This document shows positions 42,622-43,452 of a stretch of DNA of 64,000 bases, piece by piece. This DNA comes from Rhodococcus pyridinivorans (GTDB lineage: Bacteria > Actinomycetota > Actinomycetes > Mycobacteriales > Mycobacteriaceae), in the NCBI RefSeq assembly GCF_900105195.1, contig NZ_FNRX01000002.1, positions 1,674,001 to 1,738,000 of the forward strand, read 5' to 3'. The position numbers and the translations under genes are program-made. Positions within the stretch are counted from its first letter, which is position 1. The number at the start of each line of letters is the position of its first letter. Below the pieces are notes generated by a model that made no database searches, was not told the origin of the DNA, and was given only the letters and a program-made list of their open reading frames with translations.

Positions 42622-42637
42622 GTCAATCGTCGTTGAC
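42622..42637. promoter_or_regulatory. Upstream operator dyad (GTCAA-N6-TTGAC)
   Basis: GTCAATCGTCGTTGAC, a 5+5 bp dyad with a 6 bp spacer, overlapping the -35 element of the HTH/Clp-N operon. It is repeated 27 bp downstream. Confidence 0.75.
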
Positions 42638-42661
42638 GCGCCCTCGGTGTCAACCTATATT
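42633..42661 (+). promoter_or_regulatory. Sigma-70-type promoter giving a leaderless message
   Basis: TTGACG (42633-42638), exactly 17 bp, TATATT (42656-42661). The expected start of transcription is at about 42668, the A of the ATG, so the HTH mRNA should be leaderless; there is no ribosome binding site in the 6 bp left. Confidence 0.8.
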
Positions 42662-42665
42662 GACA
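42648..42665. promoter_or_regulatory. Downstream operator dyad (TGTCAA-N6-TTGACA)
   Basis: TGTCAACCTATATTGACA is a perfect 6+6 bp dyad covering the -10 element and ending 2 bp before the start codon. With the upstream copy it fits cooperative binding by a repressor, most simply the HTH protein itself. Confidence 0.75.
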
Positions 42666-42667
42666 AC

Positions 42668-42883
42668 ATGAGTGAAGCCACCACCCTCGCCGCTGCCGCC
42701 GCGAGCTCCGATCCCGCAGTGGGCCTGCGCGCCGTGCGTGCCCTGCGCCGGCTGCTGGAACGGCTCGAGGAGGTCCAGGTCACGAATGCCCGTGAGCGAG
42801 GTTGGTCCTGGCAGGCCATCGCCGACGAGCTCGGTGTCAGCCGCCAGGCGGTCCATCAGAAGCACAATCGGAAGCGCAGGTGA
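42668..42883 (+). CDS. Small helix-turn-helix protein (autoregulator candidate)
   Basis: A 71-residue protein: a helical N-terminal half (AVGLRALRALRRLLERLEEV-like; actual start MSEATTLAAAAASSDP) and a C-terminal HTH WSWQAIADELGVSRQAVHQK ending in NRKRR. There is no ligand domain. Its promoter carries two identical dyads, and it is followed by the Clp N-domain gene, whose nearest in-frame GTG overlaps its stop. The natural reading is a self-repressed two-gene operon in which the partner or a Clp chaperone controls the small repressor. I do not recognise a named family member. Confidence 0.85.
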   Translation: MSEATTLAAAAASSDPAVGLRAVRALRRLLERLEEVQVTNARERGWSWQAIADELGVSRQAVHQKHNRKRR

Positions 42884-42888
42884 TCGAC

Positions 42889-43452
42889 ATGTTCGAACGA
42901 TTCGCCGACGGTGCCAGATCCGCCGTTGTCGCAGCGCAACAGGAGGCGATCCGGGTGTGCGATCCCCGGATCGAGGCGTCGCACCTGCTCATCGGGGCCG
43001 CTGTCGCTGCGGACGAACCGCTGCGGGTCCTGCTCGCGGAGGAAGGTCTCACGGTCGACGGGCTCCGCTCCGACCGGGCCGCCCGCACCGCCGACGCCCC
43101 GCTCGGTGACGAGGACGCCGCGGCGCTCGAAGCGATCGGGATCGATCTCGACGAGGTCCGGAGCCGTCTCGAAGCGGCCTTCGGCAAGGGGGTGCTCGAC
43201 GGGAAGAACGCCGATCGGCGGGGCGTCGCGAACCGGCTCGGTCACATCCCGTTCGACCGGGCGGCGAAGAAGTCGCTCGAACTCGCGCTGCGGGAGGCCA
43301 TCGCACGCCGCGAACGGGTCATCCGTCCCGAGCACATCCTGCTCGGACTGCTGCGCAGCGACGATCCGGCGACCGGCGCCCTCGTGGAAGCGCACGTGCC
43401 GCGCGCGCAGCTCCGTCAGCGCCTGAGCGGCCACCTCGACGCCGCTGCCTGA
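42889..43452 (+). CDS. Stand-alone Clp N-terminal (double Clp-N repeat) domain protein
   Basis: A 187-residue protein containing only the ClpA/ClpC N-domain: repeat 1 FERFADGARSAVVAAQQEAI with ASHLLIGAAV, repeat 2 IPFDRAAKKSLELALREAIA with IRPEHILLGLLR. There is no AAA+ module, so it cannot unfold proteins itself; N-domains of ClpC bind adaptors and phosphoarginine-type substrates, so this could be an adaptor or decoy. The ATG at 42889 is preferred (an in-frame GTG at 42880 overlaps the previous stop). It is coupled to the small HTH gene. Confidence 0.88.
   Translation: MFERFADGARSAVVAAQQEAIRVCDPRIEASHLLIGAAVAADEPLRVLLAEEGLTVDGLRSDRAARTADAPLGDEDAAALEAIGIDLDEVRSRLEAAFGKGVLDGKNADRRGVANRLGHIPFDRAAKKSLELALREAIARRERVIRPEHILLGLLRSDDPATGALVEAHVPRAQLRQRLSGHLDAAA

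Follow-up and report, generated by a model that had tools for sequence, protein, structure and literature searches.

Two adjoining genes of Rhodococcus pyridinivorans, one for a small helix-turn-helix (HTH) protein and the other for a Clp N-terminal (Clp-N) domain that lacks an AAA+ module, stand behind a promoter covered by two inverted repeats, and the question raised by this locus is what such a pair does and which part of it reads the repeats. The locus lies in the window analysed here, a stretch of 64,000 nt (assembly GCF_900105195.1, NZ_FNRX01000002.1, positions 1,674,001-1,738,000 of the forward strand). The pair is probably a version of the ClpC2 stress-decoy system divided over two genes, composed of a leaderless autorepressor and a decoy or sensor of ClpC1. 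It belongs to the known ClpC2/ClpC3 kind, and what is new is the split two-gene form together with the argument on DNA reading. The initial annotation described a self-contained operon, which holds for the locus as a unit, but it did not name the known kind, the ClpC2/ClpC3 stress decoys. The features are collected in Table 1.

Table 1. Features of the two-gene locus, in window coordinates
Feature	Position	Strand	Basis or remark
Distal candidate operator dyad, GTCAATCGTCGTTGAC	42622-42637	.	Exact GTCAA-N6-TTGAC match; covers -35
-35 element, TTGACG	42633-42638	+	Sequence; within right half of distal dyad
Proximal candidate operator dyad, GTCAACCTATATTGAC	42649-42664	.	Exact GTCAA-N6-TTGAC match; covers -10
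-10 element, TATATT	42656-42661	+	Sequence; 17 bp from -35
Putative HTH repressor gene, 71 aa, predicted leaderless	42668-42883	+	PF13384, E=1e-5
AGGTGA, likely ribosome site of Clp-N gene	42878-42883	+	Sequence, inferred; overlaps HTH stop codon
Clp-N protein (putative MSMEG_3761/ClpC3 counterpart), 187 aa, two Clp_N repeats, no AAA+	42889-43452	+	Stop 43450-43452

The promoter agrees in full with the initial annotation. The ATG of the HTH gene (42668) lies 6 bp past the end of the -10 element with no Shine-Dalgarno sequence in between, and by position alone the gene is predicted to be leaderless. This spacing and the AGGTGA sequence suggest that the HTH gene lacks a leader while the Clp-N gene has a ribosome site of its own. 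Both dyads are exact, as first described, with their centres 27 bp apart, and they are the only exact ones in the window; when one mismatch is allowed, the window holds three matches against 0.70 expected, a number reached in 4 of 100 shuffles. A single exact dyad is not rare, since the 5.26-Mb genome has three such sites (two of them here) versus two for the pattern read backwards. The tandem N6 arrangement occurs once in this genome and was found in 94 of the 296 class genomes searched, compared with 0 of 296 for the backward-read control. Among relatives with two exact dyads, the distal one begins at about -46 to -48 and the proximal one at about -18 to -20 from the start codon, and 32 of the 39 proximal dyads listed have TA at the place of the -10 element and T at its last base. 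Elsewhere in this genome an exact N6 dyad stands alone (L016, about 2042-2057; G000:C2:4020941-4020956), with a TetR-like gene on one side and, on the other, the start region of a monooxygenase-like gene that runs divergently, both named by eye. The AlphaFold model of the HTH protein (mean pLDDT 93.3) has helices at residues 3-11, 16-43, 48-55 and 59-70, of which the last, residues ~59-70, is the recognition helix.

The second gene is, as also recognised at the outset, a Clp N-domain gene directly downstream. A domain search of the 187-residue product found Clp_N only, in two stretches, and no AAA+ domain, so that the protein is not a ClpC AAA+ unfoldase. Its frame has an alternative upstream start, GTG 42880, which overlaps the HTH stop codon, but the ATG at 42889 is the most likely start because all 14 of 14 aligned homologues begin with MFE[RK]F. 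The protein has the fold of the ClpC1 N-terminal domain (NTD), and the three ClpC1 residues critical for cyclomarin, F2, F80 and E89, correspond to its F5, F125 and E134, which are invariant in a 15-row alignment and conserved at 90% or more in a 52-row alignment. The gene upstream of the pair encodes the L-cysteine desulfhydrase Cds1 (NF052478, 687 bits), and a gene for a heptad-repeat protein lies downstream on the opposite strand. In one incomplete genome of the genus (G304, loci L200 and L201), the Clp-N gene is in two pieces in different frames, either a sequencing fault or a broken copy.

ClpC2 (Rv2667) is reported to be a fused mycobacterial autorepressor and cyclomarin sponge, whose operators, tested by gel shift, read CGTCAAC-n5-GTTGACG, that is GTCAA-N7-TTGAC, and whose binding to DNA is weakened by cyclomarin in vitro with no protease present (PMC10030653). 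It is like the window pair in having an HTH-like N-terminal domain, a ClpC1-NTD-like domain and no AAA+ module, and the layout of its promoter, with tandem palindromes on the -35 and -10 elements and a proposed leaderless start, is the same. However, ClpC2 is one fused protein whereas the window has two genes, its half-sites are spaced by N7 rather than N6, its recognition helix is of the class QAAQKRF in contrast to QAVH[QK]K, and its Clp-N domains form their own group without split rows. The genome of the window carries both spacings, N6 at this locus and tandem N7 dyads at a fused canonical ClpC2 gene (L015:970-1716, minus strand).

By synteny, the Clp-N protein would correspond to MSMEG_3761 of Mycobacterium smegmatis, a gene named clpC3 and raised in cold shock (PMC10454040). 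The 36-bp MSMEG_3762 operator printed in PMC10663510 has an exact match in 1 of 396 genomes (L231), and just upstream of it lie tandem N6 dyads (starts -46 and -19), an HTH gene whose start is 19 bp beyond that of the second dyad, and a Clp-N gene. Because this layout adjoins the MSMEG_3762 operator, MSMEG_3760-3761 appears to be this pair, and ClpC3 would share with the window the two-gene layout, the N6 dyads in tandem near -46 and -19 (seen in L231) and the stand-alone Clp-N protein. The available text of PMC5660060 reports a 16-bp palindromic motif that occurs twice ahead of the MSMEG_3760 start, at -47 and -19, with weak promoter activity and without binding by the TetR protein MSMEG_3765. 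The same text gives MSMEG_3760 and MSMEG_3761 as monocistronic by RT-PCR, which counts against a single operon in M. smegmatis. Four papers (PMC10864484, PMC10892018, PMC10914731, PMC10746685), whose ClpC3 is here assumed from the gene name in PMC10454040 to be MSMEG_3761, report in their available text that ClpC2 and ClpC3 are each bound by cyclomarin and ecumicin and increase in response to cyclomarin, and that one or both dampen Homo-BacPROTACs in M. smegmatis. The available text of these four papers and of PMC10454040 describes no regulator or operator for ClpC3; the HTH protein and the tandem dyads are proposed here for these roles, and thus for a protein reported, with ClpC2, to blunt such compounds.

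Pairs of this kind are found widely across Actinomycetes. In named genomes 562 loci were confirmed by a scan, and among the best 80 of them the HTH gene adjoins the Clp-N gene in 44, while 36 have no HTH gene and are mostly full-length ClpC. Together with the window, the 44 named loci form a set of 45 pairs; many of the genomes are related, so that these and the other counts are not independent. Two exact N6 dyads precede 36 of the 45 pairs from these best loci, the mismatches total one in three pairs, two in three and three in one (L051), and a single exact dyad is present in two mycobacterial pairs (L024 and L031). At least one exact N6 dyad is thus found in 44 of 45, and N6 dyads alone were listed among the gaps of 4-9 that were tried. 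At the 36 HTH-less loci of the same best 80, the best tandem has at least six mismatches, except in three of them, where none was found. The centres of the dyads in the 39 best pairs are 27 bp apart in 22 cases, 28 bp in 11 and 29 bp in 6. Within the genus, the Clp-N gene occurs in 16 of 18 genomes, and the tandem is present in exactly these 16 and absent, like the gene, from the other two; in the family, 58 of 151 genomes have the Clp-N gene at E<=1e-25. The 46 loci taken from genus and family (L185-L230), a number that includes the window and counts some genes twice, have two exact dyads in 44 cases, one exact dyad in one and one dyad with a mismatch in one. Conservation of the dyads alongside the pair, which the initial annotation had put forward as a check, is therefore borne out, with 16 of 16 in the genus. 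Four mycobacterial loci (L024, L031, L204 and L205) keep both genes with one dyad left, mismatched in L204, and two others (L049 and L061) have Clp-N frames without AAA+ and without an adjoining HTH gene. A tree built from 111 Clp-N domains places the fused rows in one group and the ClpC1 rows in another, neither of which holds a split row; all remaining rows are split ones, and they are not one group. Since they lie outside both groups and form no single group themselves, the split form looks old rather than the product of a recent fission.

The two spacings bear on which part of these proteins reads the operator. Searches for tandem N6 and tandem N7 dyads were run on the identical 296 class genomes, and the N7 tandem was found in 79 of them (backward-read control, 0 of 296); it is also present in 8 of the 8 family- and order-level genomes that have the N6 tandem. 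Thirty loci were fetched for each spacing, at ~3 kb each, so that a more distant Clp-N gene would escape the following counts: the N6 loci comprise 14 split pairs, 11 HTH genes without a Clp-N gene, 5 with neither and no fused form, and the N7 loci comprise 21 fused ClpC2, 7 HTH genes without a Clp-N domain, 2 with neither and no split form. The residue that follows QA[VA] in the recognition helix changes with the spacing, being H in 25 of 26 N6 proteins (N in the other one; window included) and Q in 26 of 29 N7 proteins (W in one; the two that the script could not parse are Q by eye; the ClpC2 of the window's genome included). HTH proteins without a Clp partner obey the identical rule. Because the spacing follows the recognition helix even where there is no Clp domain, the reader of the operator is probably the HTH and not the Clp domain proposed for ClpC2, and this is the main argument. 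The N6/N7 code would also predict insulated parallel systems within one cell.

This reading conflicts with the work of Taylor et al. 2023 (PMC10030653), in which DNA binding by ClpC2 is reported to be assigned by mutation to R185 and R189 of the Clp domain. The crystallised ClpC2 fragment stops short of the recognition helix, and neither 'helix-turn-helix' nor 'HTH' occurs in the main text of that paper; the region is already named an HTH domain region in the available text of PMC13284704. The likeness of the HTH protein to the N-terminal domain of ClpC2 (residues 4-72) depends on how it is searched. With a 49-row HTH profile free of ClpC2 rows, the ClpC2 fragment 8ADA is a weak match (E=0.0069 over 32 residues) and the ClpC2 reading frame of the window's genome scores 22.7 bits; 8ADA is not matched at E<=1 by the window HTH as a lone query, and it reaches E=5e-15 when the profile itself contains a ClpC2 row.

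From the anatomy of the locus, its conservation and the link between HTH and operator, all observed computationally, we infer DNA binding, ligand binding and a derepression step as follows. An HTH dimer would occupy each GTCAA-N6-TTGAC dyad, and two dimers would cover the -35 and -10 elements and silence their own leaderless promoter. The Clp-N protein would be a free copy of the ClpC1 N-domain that binds peptides or unfolded segments otherwise bound by ClpC1. A ligand on the Clp-N protein would relieve repression; most likely the empty protein keeps the HTH dimer on DNA, or aids it there, and releases it once loaded with ligand, as fused ClpC2 would do within one chain. The extra Clp-N protein then made would soak up ligand and protect ClpC1. 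These steps differ in strength, for reasons found mainly in the N6/N7 locus counts, the helix residue and the co-occurrence in the genus. Self-repression at these dyads, already suggested by the initial annotation, is very likely, as the dyads accompany the gene in its relatives, overlie the -35 and -10 elements in the layout of ClpC2 operators, and have a spacing that tracks the recognition helix. The Clp-N protein quite likely acts as a decoy. Control of the HTH protein by ligand-bound Clp-N protein is plausible only, by analogy with ClpC2, and leans slightly to the doubtful side; HTH proteins that have matching operators and no adjoining Clp-N gene count against Clp-N-dependent repression, and since ilamycin and ecumicin bind ClpC2 without inducing it in M. 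tuberculosis, binding alone need not relieve repression. The locus is a natural dissection of ClpC2 into a reader and a sensor, in which the relief of ClpC2 repression by cyclomarin becomes testable with two separate proteins.

The derepression step could be achieved differently if the HTH protein, repressing alone, were a labile substrate of ClpC1-ClpP: stimulation of ClpC1P, or a shift in its clients, would lower the level of the HTH protein and open the promoter, and the Clp-N protein would be an induced decoy that never touches it. A stand-alone repressor of 71 residues would suit such a fast-turnover switch, HTH proteins with these operators do occur away from a Clp-N gene, and cyclomarin, like the targeting of ClpC1 by BacPROTACs, is reported to raise ClpC2 and ClpC3. 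Against it stands the protease-free weakening of ClpC2 DNA binding reported for cyclomarin, and this alternative seems unlikely. The initial annotation had left it open whether the Clp-N protein is an adaptor or a decoy. The ClpC1-NTD fold, the three cyclomarin-critical residues and the reported binding and induction of ClpC3 speak for the decoy, and no adaptor feature was found. An adaptor that brings ClpC1 the HTH repressor, or some other client, would explain the gene adjacency, and adaptors are reported to dock on Clp-N domains (PMC10030653); that, however, makes the Clp-N domain the receptor side and not the docking partner, and the characterised relatives ClpC2 and ClpC3 are described in the available literature as competitors of ClpC1, which makes an adaptor improbable.

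It is more improbable still that the dyads belong to another regulator and that the HTH protein reads something else. The DNA pattern does serve other regulators, as the five of 30 N6-tandem loci without this HTH family indicate; in four loci (L109, L113, L124 and L126), genes for small XRE-like regulators and membrane-protein-like genes, assigned by eye, lie next to tandem GTCAAG-N4-CTTGAC dyads, and these loci appear to be another system with the same half-site. Against this stand the agreement of presence and absence in 18 of 18 genus genomes and the correlation of recognition helix and spacing. A toxin-antitoxin pair, with the HTH protein as an autoregulating RelI-like antitoxin and the second gene as its partner, is very remote: RelI is the best solved relative of this HTH family (9SDC, E=2.6e-9 with the 49-row profile without ClpC2, 0.021 with the window HTH alone) and adjoins the RelS toxin (Rv2663-Rv2664), its authors reporting its likeness to ClpC2 within the HTH region (PMC13284704), but its partner is a toxin without a Clp-N domain, whereas the HTH gene here has Cds1, the Clp-N gene and the heptad-repeat protein around it, with no RelS toxin gene adjoining, the partner has the ClpC1-N-domain fold and not that of a RelE-like toxin, and its relatives are described, in the available literature, as protective.

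The same HTH module appears in other combinations. In L133 (1548-1922) and L165-L168 it is fused to a ClpX zinc-binding domain (PF06689, E=2.5e-14 in L133), and these genes start right after tandem N7-type dyads, GTCARG-N5-CTTGAC. In a search of 197 genomes, 21 have a match to L133 at E<=1.6e-15, a level that no full-length ClpX gene reaches. A motif filter recognised 6 of 20 ClpX zinc-binding-domain loci, of which L165-L168 have the N7-type dyads and L182 and L184 have none. This fusion is possibly the ClpX counterpart of ClpC2. A wider proposal, to which we give an even chance, is that a TTGAC code is read across actinobacteria by one small HTH module and not by the Clp domain, with N6 or N7 spacing that follows the recognition helix. 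The module would be joined to various receptor or defence parts: to a separate Clp-N protein as in the window, to a Clp-N domain in the same chain (ClpC2), to a ClpX zinc-binding domain likewise fused (L133, L165-L168) or to an ABC exporter gene (L099, L104). Those with a Clp part would be self-repressing units that sense attack on a Clp unfoldase and lose their hold on DNA once the decoy domain is occupied. If so, the DNA-binding site of M. tuberculosis ClpC2 would be reassigned to the recognition helix that is missing from the crystallised fragment. The exporter-like arrangement, in which an ABC exporter-like gene comes after an HTH gene that has tandem N6 dyads but lacks a Clp-N gene, is found in L099 and L104 (PF00664 by Pfam) and, by eye, in L101, L102, L105 and L107. 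In L128, L129, L130 and L154, N7-type tandem dyads precede a small membrane-protein-like gene, which is followed by the HTH fused to another domain; this extra domain may make them a DUF2812 fusion of PMC13284704.
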